A DNA stretch of 64,000 bases from Bacillota bacterium (GTDB taxonomy: Bacteria; Bacillota; Sulfobacillia; Sulfobacillales; Sulfobacillaceae), in assembly GCA_021784595.1 (NCBI GenBank), contig JAJYHT010000055.1:1-64000 (forward strand), given 5' to 3'. Made by a program: the position numbers and the translations under genes. Positions 51,618 to 62,658 of this stretch are shown piece after piece. The notes under the pieces were generated by a model, which was not told where the DNA came from, did not search any database, and saw nothing but the letters and a program-made list of their open reading frames with translations. The number at the start of each line of letters is the position of its first letter. Position 1 is the stretch's first letter.

Positions 51618-51990
51618 GCGGGGAGATCTGCCGACTCGGAAGGGGGTCTTGTGTCGAATGGTATCCAGACTTCTGAGCCATTCGACGCAGTTTTTGCTAG
51701 GATGTCCTCGACCGGCCCTATACCGGATCCCAGTTGTTTTGGGTGTACGGGCTTTTTATTACGAAGAAGTTTTGCTATTATTTGGATTCAAGGACTCCGA
51801 TCACCGGAACTGGAGAAAACCATGGCCACGCCAGGAGAAATGCAGGGCGATGTTCTATCGTGTTTGCCTCCATGTAGAGACCGTGGGCTGTTTGGGGCGT
51901 GCGAGCTGGTGATGGCCTTACGACGGTCAAGTCTTGTCGTATTGGGTCTCATTATGCAGCGCGAGACGTGATTATAAGGAGGACTTCGCC
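51618..51990. other. Spacer between esterase and small gene
   Basis: A plus-strand frame at 51651-51971 begins with GTG behind GGAAGGGGG and ends just before the next ribosome site, but its composition is not protein-like to me. No other structure is evident. Confidence 0.3.
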
Positions 51991-52365
51991 TTGGCTTCTC
52001 AGCACGACCACATCGCTCGGCTCTTGTCCACGATATTGCCTGACGAAACCGTTATAGGAGATCCCTATTGGGCAATTATGGCGTGGGCTGACGATCACTT
52101 AACAGGGGAATTGTGGACGATCCCGCGGGGTTCGCAGATTATCGTGCCGTTGTTTTCGTCACATAACGATGCGACAAATGTTCACCACAACATTCCTGAA
52201 GGCCACCGGTATGTTGTTCGGGGACTTAGCCGAAACCACTTGCAATTTAGCGTGCAACGTCTTAAAGAAGGAAGCCAATTTGCCGTTGTCGAAGAACTTT
52301 ATCCTAACGGCCAATTTTCATTGAGGCTGTTAACTAAAGAAGAACTAGTGTCGAAGCGGTCTTGA
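51991..52365 (+). CDS. Small hypothetical protein
   Basis: This 124-residue protein starts with a TTG fixed by AAGGAGG eight bases upstream. It is soluble, moderately acidic and contains DETVIGDPYWAIMAWADDHL and RGSQIIVPLFSSHNDATNVHH; no domain is recognised. It stands alone between an esterase and the mini-FliY gene. The strong ribosome site and balanced composition support it as real. Confidence 0.5.
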   Translation: MASQHDHIARLLSTILPDETVIGDPYWAIMAWADDHLTGELWTIPRGSQIIVPLFSSHNDATNVHHNIPEGHRYVVRGLSRNHLQFSVQRLKEGSQFAVVEELYPNGQFSLRLLTKEELVSKRS

Positions 52366-52448: not shown

Positions 52449-52922
52449 TCATGATCGTGTTTCAGATCCGGGCGCTGGGTCAGATTGTTGAGGTCCCCAT
52501 CGTACAACTTCCACCCCAAATCGGTTTCCCACCAACACAACGCGTCCACTGCCTACCGCCAACCCATTAAGGGTGAGCGCAATCGAATCGAGCCATTGCC
52601 CATCTAATGTGATGCGGGTGCCAATGCCGATGTTCAACACTTGTTGCACACTAAGCACCCCCTTGCCCAAATTCGCGGCCAAGCGGAGCGGTAGATCGCC
52701 CAAGCGCGCCAAGCGGGGATCCTGAGGCGGCGATGCGGGCGCTTCTATCTTTTGCGGCGAGACCAGGAGGGGTGTTTCGGTTGGTGAAACCGTTGACTCG
52801 GTAACGGGTGGGGGATCGAGTGGGGAGACTTCCACACTGGGTTGTACCGTCTCCGTCACAGCCGCTATCAACGCGTCGATGTCCTCTTGAGAGAGCGGGC
52901 CGTGATTATCGTTTATTGCCAT
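52449..52922 (-). CDS. Mini-FliY/FliN-like SpoA-domain protein
   Basis: This 157-residue protein begins with LSQEDIDALIAAV, the FliM/FliY-type CheY-binding motif. A proline-rich linker (about 30-75) follows, then a C-terminal SpoA (FliN C-terminal) domain with LPLRLAANLGKGVLSVQQVL and VGNRFGVEVV. Full FliY also has CheC domains, which are absent here. The ATG at 52922 follows AGGAGG. Normal FliN works in the flagellar switch; with FapA and EAL genes instead of flagellar genes beside it, a non-flagellar switch-like role is possible. No phosphatase activity is expected. Confidence 0.8.
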   Translation of the reverse strand: MAINDNHGPLSQEDIDALIAAVTETVQPSVEVSPLDPPPVTESTVSPTETPLLVSPQKIEAPASPPQDPRLARLGDLPLRLAANLGKGVLSVQQVLNIGIGTRITLDGQWLDSIALTLNGLAVGSGRVVLVGNRFGVEVVRWGPQQSDPAPGSETRS

Positions 52923-53060
52923 ATGAGTGCCTCCTTGCCACAACCGTGTTTATCTGGGCACTACCACCCCGCAAAAACATCAGTTAAATCTTAGATATGC
53001 CTTACCCCATAGTTGGTGATTTTCAAGGGCGTCTGGTTTTTGTTCAGGCGGTGCCTGTCA

Positions 53061-54890
53061 TTACGCACTATCAATAATCATATCGGTCATTTCAGTTGTG
53101 ATTTGTTGAGTCAAGTGGCCTACACGCACCACCGCATTCGGATAAATCACCTTACTTTGAATCCAACCATCATCATTGATGACATCTATTCGGGTGTCGG
53201 TGCCTTCTTCAGATCCGATCACTTTTGCCCACACATGTTGTTGGGCTCGTACATGTCCCCCAACCACGCGGTCTCTAATTTCTACCCATTCCTCCGACGT
53301 AATGTCACAGGATTGCGCCTCCTGCAATATCACAGGTCCACGACCAACGACTCGGCTACGGATGAGGCGCCGTAGATGAACTCCTTGGGGTTCATGGGCC
53401 TCTGCGGATTCTCCAGTGTGCGTAGATTCGGTGTAGTGCTGTATCCGTTCACGGATCACTTCCAACGCCTCGATATGTGTTGTCTGAGCGAACTGATTGC
53501 CATCCAGTATCGGCACCGCTTCTTCCACCAATGCGCGCAGGTCGGGATTGTAGCAATAAGGGGGCCGTGTTCGTGCCCTTTGCATCCACTGCACGAGAGA
53601 ATCAAACTCCGGGAATTTTGTACGCACCAACCATTGTAACACAGGGCCTGCGGGAAGGACTTGATCTGGCGCACGCGTACGGACTTGGTGGTAAGCTTGT
53701 TCTAGGCTGAATAGTATATCGTGCAAATGCTGTAAATGTCGGCTTACTTCACCTCCTAGCGGGGAAGTGCCGCCTGCGAAGATTTTAGTATGATGGACGT
53801 CCCCTAAAATCCAGACATCAGCTCCGGCCACTAATTCCGCATCAAACACGTCTCCGGAAACAATGATGCTCCCGGAGACGACGATGGTCACATTTCCTCG
53901 CACATGGCCGTCAATTAAGAGATCTCCGGTGTAGGAGAAGGGGCTGTGGTGCACGGTGAGAACTCCCGAATGAATGTACTCAGGAATTAAGGAAACCGAC
54001 TGGGCCATCCAACGAATACGCCCGGGCCGCGCAGCCACGAGATGCAGACCGTGATCCATCACTTGTATACCTTCCCCTATGCGCAGATCTGCGGGTGCCG
54101 GGGGAGAAGGTGGGACCACCGTGTTCCAGACCGTAGTACCGGGGCGCGATGGCTCCCCGGATAGTAAAACGCCGATAATTTCCCCCATCGCAACATAGCC
54201 GGGCTGATCCACCGTTCCTCCAGGGTAAGACCGTGTGCGAATCTCCATCGGTAACGGGAGGTAGGTGTCCACCGAACCTGTTACGGGCATGACCCCTTCG
54301 GCGACTACTATTGACCCATTTTCGTGACGGGCTAAAAAAGCTTCCAGAGTGCTCTTTGGAGTACGCCCAAACTGGATACGTAACGCATCTAACTGTTGAT
54401 CGACATCGTTAGGAGCCACCTGTACGGTCGGTATGATGGTGGCGTCTGCTTGCACCACCAACCGCGATTGCGGCTCGGTTGCCAACAAGGTCCGTTTAAC
54501 ACCGGGCTGGTATGTCACAGTTAATACGGCTCGCATCCCAAACTCGTCGACATCAATGGTAAATTGTGAACGAGGGTCTTGAAGAGGGGCCTGGATGACA
54601 ATTTGGTCTGACTGTTGGACGACGACGTCTCCAGTGGAGGCGACGATGCCGTTTACTTCTACTGTAATACCGCTGTCCGGGGGAGGGACCACAATGACCG
54701 GATACAGGCCATGCAGGTTTAGCGGATTTTGCACATGCACAACACCCTCTGCGTCCATCCAAACTCGGCCCGATGCTTCCGTCCGCTTCTGGAAAGACGT
54801 CGTGAGATGACCCATATGGTGGAGGGAGGCCTGAACTGGGCGAGTGATTGCGGTGACGGCATTCTTTATCCAATTGGCCCAGGCATGCAT
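53061..54890 (-). CDS. FapA/DUF342 beta-helix protein
   Basis: This 609-residue protein contains the DUF342 core, with the beta-helix region GDLLIDGHVRGNVTIVVSGS and the pair DAELVAGADVWILGDV (about 335-380). A leader of about 35 residues with aromatic and basic groups could touch the membrane. FapA-type proteins are linked to motility and polar organisation, but their biochemistry is unclear. The ATG at 54890 follows AGGAGG at a spacing of eight. It is read 43 bp after the EAL gene, and the FliN-like gene follows after 138 bp. Confidence 0.8.
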   Translation of the reverse strand: MHAWANWIKNAVTAITRPVQASLHHMGHLTTSFQKRTEASGRVWMDAEGVVHVQNPLNLHGLYPVIVVPPPDSGITVEVNGIVASTGDVVVQQSDQIVIQAPLQDPRSQFTIDVDEFGMRAVLTVTYQPGVKRTLLATEPQSRLVVQADATIIPTVQVAPNDVDQQLDALRIQFGRTPKSTLEAFLARHENGSIVVAEGVMPVTGSVDTYLPLPMEIRTRSYPGGTVDQPGYVAMGEIIGVLLSGEPSRPGTTVWNTVVPPSPPAPADLRIGEGIQVMDHGLHLVAARPGRIRWMAQSVSLIPEYIHSGVLTVHHSPFSYTGDLLIDGHVRGNVTIVVSGSIIVSGDVFDAELVAGADVWILGDVHHTKIFAGGTSPLGGEVSRHLQHLHDILFSLEQAYHQVRTRAPDQVLPAGPVLQWLVRTKFPEFDSLVQWMQRARTRPPYCYNPDLRALVEEAVPILDGNQFAQTTHIEALEVIRERIQHYTESTHTGESAEAHEPQGVHLRRLIRSRVVGRGPVILQEAQSCDITSEEWVEIRDRVVGGHVRAQQHVWAKVIGSEEGTDTRIDVINDDGWIQSKVIYPNAVVRVGHLTQQITTEMTDMIIDSA

Positions 54891-54933
54891 GGCATCAACC
54901 TCCTGTTCGGACGACCGCATCGATAATCCGTAA

Positions 54934-55680
54934 TTACGTGGGTAGAGAAAACTCCGGAAAATGGGCTAGAAAATCGCTTACGGCTTCTTGTTCCACAGGC
55001 GGTGAGATGGCATAACCTTGAACCCCGTCGATATGGTCTTGCGCTAATGTAACCCATGTTTCGACTGATTCCACGCCTTCAGCCCAAACACGGCATCCTA
55101 GGCGGTGACCCAGATCAATCATTTCCCGAACCAGACCACGCGTGGTCGCGAGGCACTGCGGGCTCACAAACCGTCGATCAATCTTCAATACATCAAATGA
55201 TGTGGCTTCTAGTGCTTGAAATGACATCCCACTGCCAAAGTGATCCAGTGCTAAGGGAAAACCCTCATCTTTAAGGGTTTGAAGGGCTAGCCAATGATCA
55301 GGATCTGCCGCGACAGTTTCGTGCACTTCCCACAACACATCGCGTTCCGTCATCCCCGCCAATTCTAACCATTCCCGCACCAGGGGAACCCATTGCAAGT
55401 CACCCAGCAAGGCCAACGATAGGCGCAATCCCAGTGTCATACCGGAGTGAACACGCCGGAGTGCAGAGATGGCGGCAATGCTCTGTTGGGCAACCCATTT
55501 ATCCAGCGCTGCCGCCCGTCCTTGACGGGTTAAAATGGATACTATTTGATGGGGAGAAATCATGCCTTGAGTCTCTACGTACCAGCGCACAAACGCCTCG
55601 ACATGGCGACTATGGTTTTGGTGTCGATCCCATACTGGCTGATAGACCACCCAGAACTTATTCGTGAGGTTTCCCATCAT
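54934..55680 (-). CDS. Degenerate EAL-domain protein (c-di-GMP-linked)
   Basis: This 248-residue protein is a single EAL domain. The first motif reads EAFVRW instead of EALLRW. The metal-binding Asn (usual VNLS) is Ser in LRLSLALL, and the second Asp of DDFG is His in DHFGSG. The glutamates in LWEVHET and AEGVES, the lysine in KIDRRFV and the Gln in QGYAISPP are kept. It probably binds c-di-GMP or a partner without strong hydrolysis. No good ribosome site is seen before the ATG. It heads the unit with FapA and FliN-like genes. Confidence 0.78.
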   Translation of the reverse strand: MMGNLTNKFWVVYQPVWDRHQNHSRHVEAFVRWYVETQGMISPHQIVSILTRQGRAAALDKWVAQQSIAAISALRRVHSGMTLGLRLSLALLGDLQWVPLVREWLELAGMTERDVLWEVHETVAADPDHWLALQTLKDEGFPLALDHFGSGMSFQALEATSFDVLKIDRRFVSPQCLATTRGLVREMIDLGHRLGCRVWAEGVESVETWVTLAQDHIDGVQGYAISPPVEQEAVSDFLAHFPEFSLPT

Positions 55681-56461: not shown

Positions 56462-59400
56462 ATGACACTCAGAACGAAGTTACTCCTCGGATTTGGTTGG
56501 ATCGCCATCGTTGTGTTGATTGTTGGTGTGCATGGCTGGATTCAACTCAATCGCATTCAAGGATCGGAAGCTATCCTTCAATCGAATTTCAAAAAAATCC
56601 AATTGACTTCGGATATTCAACGAGCCGTCAAAAACGAAGCGATTGACGTGCGAGATGTGTTACTGAATTACAACGCCACCGCTAATGCCGCTTCGGTTAG
56701 CCTCATGAACGCGAATATGACCATGACCACCACTGCGATCAATAGCTTGAAAACGATGGTAAACGCCGGTCGCGAACAACAACTGCTTCACCAAATTACT
56801 CAAACCAATAGTCAGTACGACGCGCTCTCATCCCAAATTGTGGCGTTGGCTCAACATGGACAACGGACTCAAGCGATGGGCTTACTGTTAGCCAAGGAAC
56901 CTCAACTGCAAAGCCAACTCTCTCAAGAGTCCTTTCAATTCAACGCGTACGAGGAGAGCCAAGCGTTGTTGGGATTAGGTGCGCTGAGCGCGATATTCAA
57001 AACTCAATTTACGTTAATGATTACGTTATTTTTGGCAGCGTTGGCCATAGGAATCGCCACCGTCTTTCGGATCGCGTGGCAAATGACTCGTCGGCTCAAC
57101 CGTCTGTCCCATGTGATGACCCGCTTTGCTAAAGGAGACGAGGAGTCGGTTCGGATTGATGCGCAATTGCGGGATGAAATTGGTACGGTGGCGGCTTCAT
57201 TTAATGAGATGGCCGACGCTCTCCAAGCGCAGGCCGACCGCGTGCGCCACGTTAGCCAAAGTAAGGAAGACCAAGCCTGGGTGCAATCCAACATCGCGAA
57301 CACAACCACTCTGCTCAGCGGCCTTCAGAACACCAGTGAGTTTGGCAAAAAATTGTTGACGGTGATAAGTCCCCTGGTTCAAGCCCAATACGGTGCTTTT
57401 TATGTACGCGACGAGGACAGTGCCAAAATCCAATTCAGGTTAGTGGGCTCCTACGCGTATAAACAACGCAAAAACTTGTCTAATGTCTTTGAGTTGGGAG
57501 AAGGACTGGTGGGGCAATCTGCTCTTGAAAACACCCCGATTTTGCTGACGGATGTGCCCGCGGACTATATCAAAATTACTTCGGGATTAGGAGAAGCCGC
57601 GCCGCGACAGGTCCTCGTGCTGCCCATTAATTTTGAGGGGATCACGCGAGGCGTGCTGGAACTTGCGTCCTTCGAGTCTTTCAGTCCGCTCCAACTCGCG
57701 TTTTTAGATGAACTGGCCCGCGCTGTCGGTATTGTCCTGGATAGTATTGCAAGTCGGATGCGCCTGGCACAGTTGTTGTCGGAATCGCAAACCATGACCG
57801 AAGAATTACAAGCACAATCAGAAGAACTGCAGTCGCAACAAGAAGAACTGCGGGCGACCAACGAAGAATTGGAAGAGCAAACCCAAGCGCTCCGACAGTC
57901 TGAAGAAGCATTACAGGCCCAACAAGTGGAGTTGGAAAAGATTAATGCGGAATTACAAGAAAAAGCTCAGTTGTTGGTAGAAAAGAATCTCGCAATGGAC
58001 CACACTCAACGAACTCTGAAGGATCGGACTCGACAACTTGAAGTCAGTTCGCAGTACAAATCGGAATTTCTTGCCAACATGTCCCACGAATTGCGCACGC
58101 CCTTGAACAGCCTGCTCATCTTATCCAAATTGTTAGCCGATAACTCCGAAGGCAACTTGACAGAGAAACAGGTAGAATTTGCCCACACTATCTATTCGTC
58201 TGGGCAAGGGCTCTTGGCGTTAATCAACGATGTGCTGGATCTTGCCAAAATAGAAGCCGGGAAAATGTCGATCAACCTGGGTCCATTGAGATTAGTGGAA
58301 CTGAAGACGTTTGTGGAACAGCAGTTTGCTCCCGTGGCGCAGCAAAAACACCTAGACTTTCATGTCACCATGAACCCACAATTGCCCCAGACTCTCTACA
58401 CTGATAGTCAACGCGTGCAACAAGTCCTCCAAAATCTCCTCTCTAATGCCTTTAAGTTTACCGAATACGGCAGGGTGTCCCTCGCCATCGACGAGGGTTT
58501 TAAACCTGATCCATGCGTCATCTTTTCCGTCTCGGATTCGGGGATCGGGATTCCTCAGGATAAGCAGGAGGTGATCTTTGAGGCGTTTCAGCAGGTCGAT
58601 GGGACCACCAGTCGCCAATATGGGGGAACAGGCCTCGGACTCTCCGTGAGTCGGCAAATGGTGACTCTTTTAGGGGGACACCTGACGGTAACCAGCCAAG
58701 AGGGAGAAGGGAGCACGTTTACATTTACCGTGCCGCTCGATCCCTCACACCCGCTGACCCCGGATGCAGCGCATGCGGTCCTGCCCCCAGCACCTGATCC
58801 CGCAGAGGTCCTTCAGGACGTCAGCTTGGCTCTGTCATCGCCGTCTGCCAAAAAAATTCTGATTGTGGAGGATGAGGAGGCCCCACAAGATAGTGTCATC
58901 ACCCTCATTGGCCACAAAAAGTTGGTCATCACGGCCGTGTCTACGGCTTCCCAGGCCATGAATCGATTGGCGATGGACCAATATGACGGACTGGTGTGGG
59001 TTGTAGGGAAATCCAGTCTACCGGGCACGAGTCTGTTGCATGCGTTACACACGCGAGGAGCCTTAGATGGGTTGACGCTCTTCATCTATACGGAGCGTGA
59101 GCTGTCCGATCACGAAGAGGACCAATTCCGTCGATATGCTTCGTCGATTATCATCCAAGGCCGTCAATCGCTTAAGCGTCTTGATGAGGCGATTGACCAA
59201 TTTCTCGCAGGTTCACAGCCTGTCGCAGCAGGTGAACCGGTTACTGCGAGACCCCTGTCATCCACAGAATTTGCCGGCAAAAAAATTCTCCTGGTGGATG
59301 ATGATATTCGAAATGTCTTTGCGCTAACCAGTGTGCTCGAACGTTATGGGATGGACATTGTGTTTGCGGAAAATGGGGAAGAATGTTTGGAGATTTTAGA

Positions 59401-59686
59401 GACCACGGCAGACATTGACTTAATATTGATGGACATTATGATGCCGAAGATGGATGGTATCGAGACCATCACCCGCATTCGATCGACGCAAACCTATGGT
59501 AGTGTACCGATTATTGTCGTTACGGCAAAAGCGATGACAACTGACCGCGTTGGAGGCCTTGAAGCGGGAGCGTCTGACTATTTGATTAAGCCCACTCAAC
59601 CCGATCAATTACTGTCGCTGATGAGTGTGTGGCTCCACCGACATCTGAGAGCGCGGTCGGGGAAGAATGAGGTCTCCAATGGATGA
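56462..59686 (+). CDS. Hybrid sensor histidine kinase (4HB-HAMP-GAF-HK-REC-REC)
   Basis: This 1074-residue kinase has a first membrane helix (about 8-28), a four-helix-bundle sensor (30-170), a second helix (about 180-200), HAMP (200-255), GAF (275-425) and a glutamine/glutamate-rich coiled coil (430-530). The HisKA motif SHELRTPLNS holds His542, and an ATPase domain with GIGIPQD and GGTGLGLSV follows. There are two receivers: the first (about 798-918) lacks the phosphoacceptor Asp, the second has Asp991 in LILMDIMMP. AAGGAG precedes the ATG. CheR and GGDEF-EAL genes follow closely. Confidence 0.88.
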   Translation: MTLRTKLLLGFGWIAIVVLIVGVHGWIQLNRIQGSEAILQSNFKKIQLTSDIQRAVKNEAIDVRDVLLNYNATANAASVSLMNANMTMTTTAINSLKTMVNAGREQQLLHQITQTNSQYDALSSQIVALAQHGQRTQAMGLLLAKEPQLQSQLSQESFQFNAYEESQALLGLGALSAIFKTQFTLMITLFLAALAIGIATVFRIAWQMTRRLNRLSHVMTRFAKGDEESVRIDAQLRDEIGTVAASFNEMADALQAQADRVRHVSQSKEDQAWVQSNIANTTTLLSGLQNTSEFGKKLLTVISPLVQAQYGAFYVRDEDSAKIQFRLVGSYAYKQRKNLSNVFELGEGLVGQSALENTPILLTDVPADYIKITSGLGEAAPRQVLVLPINFEGITRGVLELASFESFSPLQLAFLDELARAVGIVLDSIASRMRLAQLLSESQTMTEELQAQSEELQSQQEELRATNEELEEQTQALRQSEEALQAQQVELEKINAELQEKAQLLVEKNLAMDHTQRTLKDRTRQLEVSSQYKSEFLANMSHELRTPLNSLLILSKLLADNSEGNLTEKQVEFAHTIYSSGQGLLALINDVLDLAKIEAGKMSINLGPLRLVELKTFVEQQFAPVAQQKHLDFHVTMNPQLPQTLYTDSQRVQQVLQNLLSNAFKFTEYGRVSLAIDEGFKPDPCVIFSVSDSGIGIPQDKQEVIFEAFQQVDGTTSRQYGGTGLGLSVSRQMVTLLGGHLTVTSQEGEGSTFTFTVPLDPSHPLTPDAAHAVLPPAPDPAEVLQDVSLALSSPSAKKILIVEDEEAPQDSVITLIGHKKLVITAVSTASQAMNRLAMDQYDGLVWVVGKSSLPGTSLLHALHTRGALDGLTLFIYTERELSDHEEDQFRRYASSIIIQGRQSLKRLDEAIDQFLAGSQPVAAGEPVTARPLSSTEFAGKKILLVDDDIRNVFALTSVLERYGMDIVFAENGEECLEILETTADIDLILMDIMMPKMDGIETITRIRSTQTYGSVPIIVVTAKAMTTDRVGGLEAGASDYLIKPTQPDQLLSLMSVWLHRHLRARSGKNEVSNG

Positions 59687-60500
59687 AAACCTAGAGCGAA
59701 TTGAAGTCGGCTTGTTACTTCAAGGAATTTATGCGCAGTATGGGTATGACTTTAGAAATTACGCGTACCCGGTGATACGGAGGCGGGTGTGGCACAGGAT
59801 CCAAGCCGAACGACTAGAGACCATTTCGGGACTCCAAGAAAAAGTGTTGCATGACCCGAGTTGCGTAAAACGTTTGGTTTCTGACTTCTCCATAGCGGTG
59901 ACCGAGATGTTTCGTGATCCGCATTTTTTTCTGAGTCTGCGCCAACGCATCCTGCCACGCTTACACGCATGGGAAGCAATCCGAGTATGGGTCGCGGGCT
60001 GTTCGTCGGGAGAAGAAGTCTATTCAGTCTCTATTTTACTGAGGGAAGAAGGACTGGCTAACCGAACCGAAATTTATGCGACTGACATGAACCCCGATGG
60101 GTTGCAGAAAGCCCAGAATGGGGTCTATTCACTAGATGTTATGCAGACATACACCAGTAATTACCTTCGATCTGGAGGGCGTCATGTATTTTCAGACTAC
60201 TACACCGCTTCGTCACGGGGTGCAGCTTTCCGCCCCGAATTAATCGAACATGTTGTATTTGCCCAACACAATTTGGCCACCGACCGCGCTTTTCACACTT
60301 TTCACTTGATTCTTTGCCGCAATGTCTTGATTTATTTTAATGGGGTGCTGCAAAAAGAAGTGTTCGATTTATTCCACCAAAGCTTGGTAACGGGAGGATT
60401 CTTAGGCCTAGGGGATGCTGAGTCGATCTCTATTTCCGACATTCGCTACAACTACGAACGGGCCGATCCCCTACAAAAGTGGTACCGTCGGATAAAATGA
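59679..60500 (+). CDS. cheR: CheR-family methyltransferase
   Basis: This 273-residue S-adenosylmethionine-dependent enzyme has VAGCSSGEEVYSVSILL for SAM binding, EIYATDMNPDG and FHLILCRNVLIYF, all typical of CheR, which methylates receptor glutamates. The ATG at 59679 follows GAGG and overlaps the kinase stop by 8 bp; an ATG four codons upstream is also possible. No CheB methylesterase or MCP is nearby, so the substrate may be the kinase itself or a distant receptor. Confidence 0.87.
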   Translation: MDENLERIEVGLLLQGIYAQYGYDFRNYAYPVIRRRVWHRIQAERLETISGLQEKVLHDPSCVKRLVSDFSIAVTEMFRDPHFFLSLRQRILPRLHAWEAIRVWVAGCSSGEEVYSVSILLREEGLANRTEIYATDMNPDGLQKAQNGVYSLDVMQTYTSNYLRSGGRHVFSDYYTASSRGAAFRPELIEHVVFAQHNLATDRAFHTFHLILCRNVLIYFNGVLQKEVFDLFHQSLVTGGFLGLGDAESISISDIRYNYERADPLQKWYRRIK

Positions 60501-60531
60501 CAAAGTGCAAAAACCAGGGGAGGCATGTGAA

Positions 60532-62658
60532 ATGGAAGCCCGCGGCATAGACACCTGGGCAGTGGATGAACGCATCAATATCTTATTGGTTGATGACCGG
60601 CCAGAAAATCTCGGGGTGTTAGAAGCCGTGCTCTCTCCCCGAGATTATCGTTTAGTAAAGGCAACATCGGCGGAAATGGCTCTCAAAAGTCTTTTGCACC
60701 AGGATTTTGCGGTCATTCTTTTAGATGTGCAAATGCCGGGCATGAATGGTTTTGAAGCCGCCAAGATGATTAAAGCACGCGAAAAGTCCAAAGACATTCC
60801 GATTATTTTTATTACGGCGATTAGCCAAGAACGGGACCATGTGAATGAAGGATACTCCGTAGGGGCCATTGATTACATCTTTAAACCCTTTGATGCGGAT
60901 ATTCTGAGAAGCAAAGTGGACGCCTTCGTCAGTCTATTCAGCAATCAAAAAAAGATTGCGCAACAGGCTGAACAACTCAAACGTAAGACGCGAGAGTTGG
61001 AACATGCTTATGAGGAACTCTCCCGCACCACTGCCGAATTAAGACGCACCGAAGCTTTGGCTAGTGTGATTGCTGACACGGCACGCGACACCATGGCCAC
61101 TTTCAGCCCCGACGGCAGCCTGCTCTCGGTCAACCCCGCCGTAGAATCTATGTTTGGATATCAGTCCAGAGAACTCGTGGGGAGACCGGTCGCAACCATT
61201 ATCCCCGACATTATGGGGCAAGCGGGGTCGCCGTCGCCTGTCGCATTCGAAGCGACGGCGGTGCGCAATGATGCCAGCACTTTTGTCTCAGAAGTCCATA
61301 TTGGCACAACCTTGGTGCAGGGGGAGGTTGTTTATGCATGCACCGTTCGTGACATCACCGAGAGGAAACAACATCTCGAGATCTTGGAACATCAGGTGTT
61401 GCATGATGACCTCACGGGTTTACCGAACCGCACATTCTTGTTCCAACGCATCACCCAGGCTGTTCGTCAACAGCCTCCTGAGGCGCATCCTTTTGCGCTG
61501 CTTCTCCTTGACCTCGATCATTTCAAAGCGATTAATGACACCATGGGTCATGCGGTAGGGGATTGCCTTTTAAAAGTCGTGGGCCAGCGTTTACAGGAGT
61601 TTATCAATGACAACGGACTGGTCGTGCGGTTGGGTGGTGACGAATTTGCTGTTGTGGTGCCCGGGCAACACTTTGAGGATGTGCTACCTTTGGCACAGGC
61701 CATCCTCGAGCTTTTGGACACGCCGTTTGTCACTGCTGAACACACGTTTGTAGTGCGTCCCAGCATTGGGATCGTGAGCTTTCCCCGGCATGGCTATGAT
61801 GGGGATACCTTGATTCGACGCGCGGATATGGCTATGTATGAAGCGAAACGCACTCAGAGGGGCTATGTGGCATTTGCCGAAGAACAAGAACAAGTTGTCG
61901 TGATGGCGCAATCTCTCAGACAGGCCATTAAATCCGGCGAATTTCATTTGGTCTATCAACCTAAAGTGCATATGAACCATGGTACCACCCGGTCGGTCGA
62001 GGCGCTTTTGCGATGGAACCACCCTCAATTAGGTGCGATTGCCCCGGATCTCTTTATTCCGTGGGCCGAACAAATGGGGGTCATATCTCAACTCACCACA
62101 TGGGTTTTGAATGAAGCCATGACGCAATGCCAGGAGTGGGTCCGTGCAGGGCTCGCTCTCTGTGTGGCCGTGAACTTATCGGCCTGGGATTTGAAAGATG
62201 CGAATTTGCCGAACCGCCTAGCCAGCGGGTTGCGCCAATACCAACTAGCGCCCGCCAACCTCTCAGTAGAAATTACTGAAAGCGCTATCATGCAAGACCC
62301 TGCACAGGCCATGAAAGTCTTGACTCGCTTGGGACAACTGGGTATCAAAGTGTCCATTGATGATTTTGGCACGGGATATTCTTCCTTTGCCTATCTCAGT
62401 CAATTACCCGTCCATGAAATTAAGATTGATAAGTCCTTCGTACTCACCATGTTATCCAACCCAACCAATGCCATTATCGTGCGGTCCATTATCGCGTTAG
62501 CACATAATTTGTCTCTAGTCGTCGTGGCCGAAGGTGTCGAGACTCAAGAAATATGGGATGCACTGAATTCCTTATCGTGTGACGTGGCTCAAGGGTATCT
62601 CATCTCACGGCCGATACTGGCCGATGGCATTCCAGAGTTTATGAGAAGACAACCGTGA
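60532..62658 (+). CDS. REC-PAS-GGDEF-EAL response regulator
   Basis: This 708-residue protein starts with a receiver (Asp65 in VILLDVQMP), then a coiled-coil linker, a PAS domain (about 165-285), GGDEF at residues 368-372 and a complete EAL (490-492, with AVNLS, EITES, DDFGTG and KIDKSF intact). It can make and break c-di-GMP, with phosphorylation by the upstream kinase as the likely switch. The inhibitory RxxD site before GGDEF is replaced by NDNG. The ATG at 60532 follows GGGGAGG. It lies 31 bp after cheR. Confidence 0.9.
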   Translation: MEARGIDTWAVDERINILLVDDRPENLGVLEAVLSPRDYRLVKATSAEMALKSLLHQDFAVILLDVQMPGMNGFEAAKMIKAREKSKDIPIIFITAISQERDHVNEGYSVGAIDYIFKPFDADILRSKVDAFVSLFSNQKKIAQQAEQLKRKTRELEHAYEELSRTTAELRRTEALASVIADTARDTMATFSPDGSLLSVNPAVESMFGYQSRELVGRPVATIIPDIMGQAGSPSPVAFEATAVRNDASTFVSEVHIGTTLVQGEVVYACTVRDITERKQHLEILEHQVLHDDLTGLPNRTFLFQRITQAVRQQPPEAHPFALLLLDLDHFKAINDTMGHAVGDCLLKVVGQRLQEFINDNGLVVRLGGDEFAVVVPGQHFEDVLPLAQAILELLDTPFVTAEHTFVVRPSIGIVSFPRHGYDGDTLIRRADMAMYEAKRTQRGYVAFAEEQEQVVVMAQSLRQAIKSGEFHLVYQPKVHMNHGTTRSVEALLRWNHPQLGAIAPDLFIPWAEQMGVISQLTTWVLNEAMTQCQEWVRAGLALCVAVNLSAWDLKDANLPNRLASGLRQYQLAPANLSVEITESAIMQDPAQAMKVLTRLGQLGIKVSIDDFGTGYSSFAYLSQLPVHEIKIDKSFVLTMLSNPTNAIIVRSIIALAHNLSLVVVAEGVETQEIWDALNSLSCDVAQGYLISRPILADGIPEFMRRQP

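Follow-up and report, generated by a model that had tools for sequence, protein, structure and literature searches.

In the analysed stretch of 64,000 nucleotides (hereafter the window), the genes for an EAL-domain protein, a FapA-type protein and a small SpoA-domain protein follow each other closely. This raises the question of whether the three genes form a unit, and whether its output would be the flagellar motor or, as the first-pass annotation had proposed, a non-flagellar complex. All three genes of the trio were confirmed to be present on a single strand, with the following features:

54934..55680, minus strand: stand-alone EAL-domain protein of 248 aa, identified by a Pfam EAL match and by aligning its residues with those of neighbouring and structurally solved EALs
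53061..54890, minus strand: FapA/DUF342-type beta-solenoid protein of 609 aa from its likely start, with FapA_N and FapA domains above cut-off
52449..52922, minus strand: small SpoA protein of 157 aa, a member of a third flagellar SpoA family, consisting of tip, linker and SpoA domain
52870..52896, minus strand: codons of the docking tip LSQEDIDAL, located by a pattern search of the entire assembly

The list of parts in the first-pass annotation, namely an altered EAL protein, a FapA protein and a SpoA protein with a FliM-type tip, was right.

For two of the genes, the longest open frame does not mark the likely start. The longest FapA frame begins at 54920, and the ATG at 54890, with AGGAGG upstream, is the better start. 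The longest SpoA frame comprises 52449-52943; translation probably starts at 52922, where an ATG is preceded by AAGGAGG, which gives MAINDNHGPLSQEDIDALIAA. The distance from the EAL gene to the FapA gene (54890 start) is 43 nt and that from the FapA gene to the SpoA gene is 138 nt, and terminator-like sites were detected in neither gap. Judged by this arrangement, the three genes are likely to be co-transcribed; the 138-nt gap also offers space for a separate SpoA promoter. The unit comprises only these three genes, because both the hybrid kinase gene at 56462 and an open frame of 143 aa at 51934-52365 are on the opposite strand. The latter frame is convergent to the SpoA gene and lacks a Pfam match.

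On the EAL side, a row of plus-strand genes (56462-62658) encodes an orphan CheR in addition to the hybrid kinase, whose sensor is of the 4HB_MCP type, and a protein with the domains REC-PAS-GGDEF-EAL. The CheY-type receivers that had been noticed next door are real, as domains of the hybrid kinase and of the REC-PAS-GGDEF-EAL protein, but no free-standing CheY adjoins the trio in its neighbourhood within the window. The orphan CheR is found in a genome without an MCP or CheB match, and it may have a role outside chemotaxis.

The EAL protein matched PF00563 with an E value of 5e-43, and its residues were compared with the canonical EAL of the adjacent REC-PAS-GGDEF-EAL protein and with solved EALs. 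It was correctly described as catalytically altered: in comparison with canonical EALs, NLS has become RLS, so that Arg stands in for the metal-ligand Asn, and His occupies the position of the second Asp in DDFG. Both Glu residues (in EAL and in ExxE), the first Asp, the Gln and the catalytic Lys are unchanged, and the EAFVR stretch is retained. The full set of metal ligands of an active phosphodiesterase, i.e. the Asn of NLS and both Asp residues of DDFG, is thus incomplete. Most of the other EALs that adjoin FapA genes retain both the Asn and the second Asp. From the general properties of EAL domains, we infer that the window protein is probably devoid of phosphodiesterase activity and may still bind c-di-GMP. 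LapD and FimX are degenerate-EAL receptors of c-di-GMP. The window protein resembles them in its EAL fold with altered metal ligands, from which binding without cleavage would be expected, and differs in that it stands alone, without a GGDEF or membrane part.

The middle gene encodes a member of the FapA family (PF03961/PF20250; 43.9 versus 31 bits and 41.9 versus 27 bits), with the FapA_N (9e-11) and FapA (3e-11) domains both above the Pfam cut-offs. An AlphaFold2 model based on 15 sequences (pLDDT 87, pTM 0.64) predicts a solenoid that is divided by a helical insert. Foldseek did not retrieve a solved structural relative at E < 0.001, and a sequence search for a solved relative yielded just a weak match to MinC (E 0.005). 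In VIA-align, the last approximately 95 residues aligned with the MinC C-domain over 86-89 residues (Z 8.7-8.8, rmsd 1.8-2.0 A), but unrelated solenoids equalled or exceeded this score, up to a Z of 13.0 for the HMW1 secretion domain. Because solenoids match many unrelated proteins, the likeness to MinC counts for little. FlhG of the window's genome is MinD-like, and a contact between FapA and FlhG would fit with a MinC-like solenoid, although this is a weak argument. In Vibrio vulnificus, FapA (flagellar assembly protein A) reportedly acts in polar flagellation together with EIIAGlc and HubP (cited in PMC6877527). The window protein contains the identical Pfam families (FapA_N and FapA); however, its sequence is divergent and its gene is paired with an EAL gene.

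Within the taxonomic order to which the window's genome belongs, an EAL or REC gene was found directly ahead of the FapA gene at about 18 of 20 evaluable loci. On a plasmid of Alicyclobacillus curvatus, EAL and FapA are even fused in one protein (L141:3912-6470), which adjoins a response regulator, and genes for EAL, FapA, REC, HK and HD are consecutive on the A. acidocaldarius plasmid pAACI02. Because of these loci, the fusion and the gene row, EAL-FapA can be regarded as a recurring unit. At 12 loci of the receiver type, a histidine kinase gene is next, followed by a gene for a TPR-HD protein unless the contig ends; EAL-type loci without a receiver do not have this continuation. The arrangement REC-FapA-histidine kinase-TPR/HD recurs (L041, L044, L047, L048, L050-L052, L054-L056, L142) in Sulfobacillaceae, in relatives and on one A. 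acidocaldarius plasmid, and is possibly an undescribed signalling module. FapA-like proteins are frequent across the phylum, with 155 of 299 genomes encoding them, and their contexts are varied; for example, CheB and CheR flank a FapA gene within a che operon of genome G249 (L230:1-7597).

A SpoA gene beside EAL-FapA was found solely in the window's genome. When the positions of FapA and SpoA genes were compared, a second trio was present neither in 61 related genomes nor in 26 genome-collection loci. A single FapA query against the named genome collection gave no matches, and among 20 loci across the phylum, analysed with a narrow home-made profile set, the pairing of EAL or SpoA with FapA was not repeated. 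As the trio occurs in one genome only, a conserved linkage of SpoA to EAL-FapA cannot be demonstrated.

The SpoA protein matched FliMN_C (PF01052) with an E value of 4e-11 and 43-45 bits (cut-off 23.8). It is not FliN, from which it is separated in the tree with 100/100 support and whose NCBIfam model it matched with 40.7 versus 84 bits. It is also not FliY, as it comprises only 157 aa, has no CheC match and reached 41 versus 218 bits with the NCBIfam FliY model. A role in type III secretion was considered and rejected as the leading explanation (SctQ model, 44 bits versus a cut-off of 100.8). An N-terminal docking motif of the FliY EIDAL type is present in the form of LSQEDIDAL and is common to the protein's family. 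This third SpoA family of Sulfobacillaceae was defined in the present analysis by architecture together with tree grouping; its plan is an LSQxEIDAL tip, a linker, a DPRLxR-like stretch and a SpoA domain with a terminal WG. The window protein has all of these elements and groups with the family in the tree.

The third family was found in most Sulfobacillaceae examined. In at least seven distinct genomes, its gene is the last of a CheA-CheY-HD-CheX-CheB-CheR-SpoA operon, and in others it lies beside motAB. The window gene departs from these usual locations and sits behind EAL-FapA. In the tree, which is based on about 80 columns, the window copy does not have a well-supported sister inside the family. 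Two further copies in the genus, which includes the genome deposited as Sulfobacillus benefaciens AMDSBA4, adjoin an unrelated MMPL gene. In che operons of Sulfobacillaceae, HD-domain-like and CheX/CheC-like proteins are encoded between CheY and CheB, with the third SpoA gene at the end (L121, L125, L128, L130, L171, L173, L175). In two genomes without CheW (G006 and G015), a REC-HD-SpoA set (L137:8161-9961, L138:6934-8737) is located upstream of a TPR protein gene and, in G006, also of motAB; this set is a possible CheA-independent input to the motor.

The tip of the window protein represents a full LSQxEIDAL-type motif. According to one paper, all motile bacteria have an EIDALL motif in FliM and FliY (PMC9126983). 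However, FliM of all 16 Sulfobacillaceae that were read lacks the tip and begins just ahead of the conserved YDF(Q/K)R, and the alignment with the NCBIfam FliM model begins only at model position 28. FliN of the family has merely a weak, LTAEEIQALI-like version. The tip is also absent from FliM in the four outgroups of the order or class that were read, one of which carries it on a protein of FliY size. In the whole assembly of the window's genome, the tip pattern was matched once, by the window SpoA protein; the other small SpoA copy, which is encoded on contig C5, does not have it. Third-family proteins of three genomes without CheW (G010, G014, G018) have no tip either. Because these proteins and the C5 copy are without the tip, the tip of the window protein appears to have been retained by selection.

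Three known systems can be compared with this arrangement. FliY, the CheY-P phosphatase of the C-ring in Bacillus and Thermotoga, likewise combines an N-terminal EIDAL tip with a C-terminal SpoA domain, and FlhG has been reported to bind it (PMC12826062). In contrast, the window protein has a linker of about 50 aa instead of the CheC domain and coexists with FliM and FliN. In Campylobacter jejuni and Helicobacter pylori, FliM, FliN and FliY also add up to three SpoA proteins per motor (PMC6946799, PMC8809382), and a duplicated FliN-like protein has taken a special role. However, FliM of these species commonly retains EIDAL, whereas in Sulfobacillaceae FliM is without it and the motif is found on a short third protein, whose gene accompanies che genes or, in the case of the window, EAL-FapA. 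Similar only in the way of working is CheF, the CheY adaptor of the archaellum (PMC9126983), in that a separate adaptor is the docking place of a response regulator at the motor; CheF is an unrelated protein with another binding mode and serves archaella instead of flagella.

The claim that the unit occurs without flagellar genes is true for the neighbourhood but not for the genome. Contig C24 encodes FliM, FliN, FlhA/B/F/G and FliP/Q/R, contig C5 encodes FliF, FliG, FliH, FliI and MotA/B, and a flagellin-type gene is present on the contig of the window itself. The first-pass annotation had named occurrence solely with full flagellar operons as evidence against its proposal; in these terms, the single genome in which the trio was found is flagellated, although the trio lies outside any flagellar operon. 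A flagellum-independent, switch-like assembly of EAL, FapA and SpoA would be compatible with this neighbourhood, with the occurrence of SpoA domains in non-flagellar type III secretion rings, and with the FapA loci of relatives, which adjoin kinase or HD genes and not flagellar genes. However, in view of the flagellar gene set in the same genome and of relatives that encode third-family SpoA proteins with che or motAB genes, we consider such a non-flagellar output complex to be very improbable.

No match to CheW/CheA, MCP signalling or CheB was found in the window's genome, and the controls worked. The genome (G000) is a draft of 101 contigs that is 97.5% complete. Because CheA, MCP and SpoA are encoded in one locus in the relative G003, these absences are not independent, and a single missing contig of the draft could explain all of them. 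The SpoA protein would then be an ordinary CheY-P docking subunit with an unusually placed gene. Chemotaxis genes were present in all Sulfobacillus genomes of a published survey (PMC4378227), and G004 has CheB-CheR-SpoA at a contig end and yet no CheW match, the pattern expected from an assembly gap. However, CheW, MCP and CheB are all without a match despite working controls, and the chance that one given locus lies in the missing 2-3% is small. Such a missing contig is unlikely but possible, and ordinary chemotaxis docking seems improbable to us. Several other genomes of the family are also without a CheW match. In G005, CheW-domain genes are present but no SpoA-domain (FliM/FliN) match was found, possibly indicating a chemosensory system without flagella.

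If the che genes have truly been lost, the SpoA protein could be a leftover, i.e. the docking subunit of an old che operon that was stranded behind EAL-FapA by accident. The che-terminal location of its relatives, the lack of CheW, MCP and CheB matches, the two copies beside the MMPL gene and the confinement of the trio to one genome would all be expected. However, the tip is intact, unlike in the C5 copy and in G010, G014 and G018, and the gene follows FapA on the same strand after 138 nt, with no terminator found and with a good ribosome-binding site. We therefore regard a chemotaxis leftover as an unlikely explanation, albeit one to be taken seriously.

The reading that we prefer, with a probability of roughly 0.5, is that EAL-FapA-SpoA serves the flagellar C-ring as an accessory input module linked to c-di-GMP, which probably feeds a signal other than chemotaxis into the flagellum. 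The degenerate EAL protein would be a receptor for c-di-GMP and not an enzyme, and FapA would be its partner and beta-solenoid scaffold. The SpoA protein would enter the FliM/FliN ring via its SpoA domain and supply the EIDAL docking tip that is missing from FliM of Sulfobacillaceae, and EAL-FapA would make docking to this tip dependent on c-di-GMP. CheY-P is one binder of EIDAL-type tips (PMC9126983), and for FlhG, docking at either FliY or the N-terminus of FliM has been reported (PMC12826062). Because CheA, CheW, CheB and receptors were not found, classical CheY-P is probably not the partner of the window protein's tip. With no CheA, candidate partners are FlhG, a MinD-like ATPase, while the C-ring is being assembled, or the receiver of a non-Che kinase, either of which would be likelier than CheY-P. 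We infer co-transcription, c-di-GMP binding, complex formation, incorporation into the C-ring and the tip partner from sequences and gene contexts, on which the mechanism is wholly based. A more specific proposal is that a chemotaxis-less flagellum is steered or assembled via a separate tip-bearing SpoA protein, which would bind FlhG or a non-Che receiver and be controlled by an EAL-FapA pair that binds c-di-GMP; in its entirety, this proposal is tentative and rather doubtful.

Neither the location of the tip on a separate che-linked SpoA protein nor the pairing of EAL or REC with FapA was described in the literature searched, and the former appears to be the more interesting part. In Sulfobacillaceae, a small separate protein, whose gene accompanies those for chemotaxis, appears to carry the CheY-docking motif in place of FliM. 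With a separate tip protein, CheY docking would become a module open to rewiring, and the window would be a case in which this module has been rewired to c-di-GMP in a genome without detected chemotaxis. The EAL/REC-FapA pairing, which extends from Sulfobacillaceae to Alicyclobacillus, suggests a testable connection between phosphorelay or c-di-GMP signals and FapA proteins, a family that is poorly understood.
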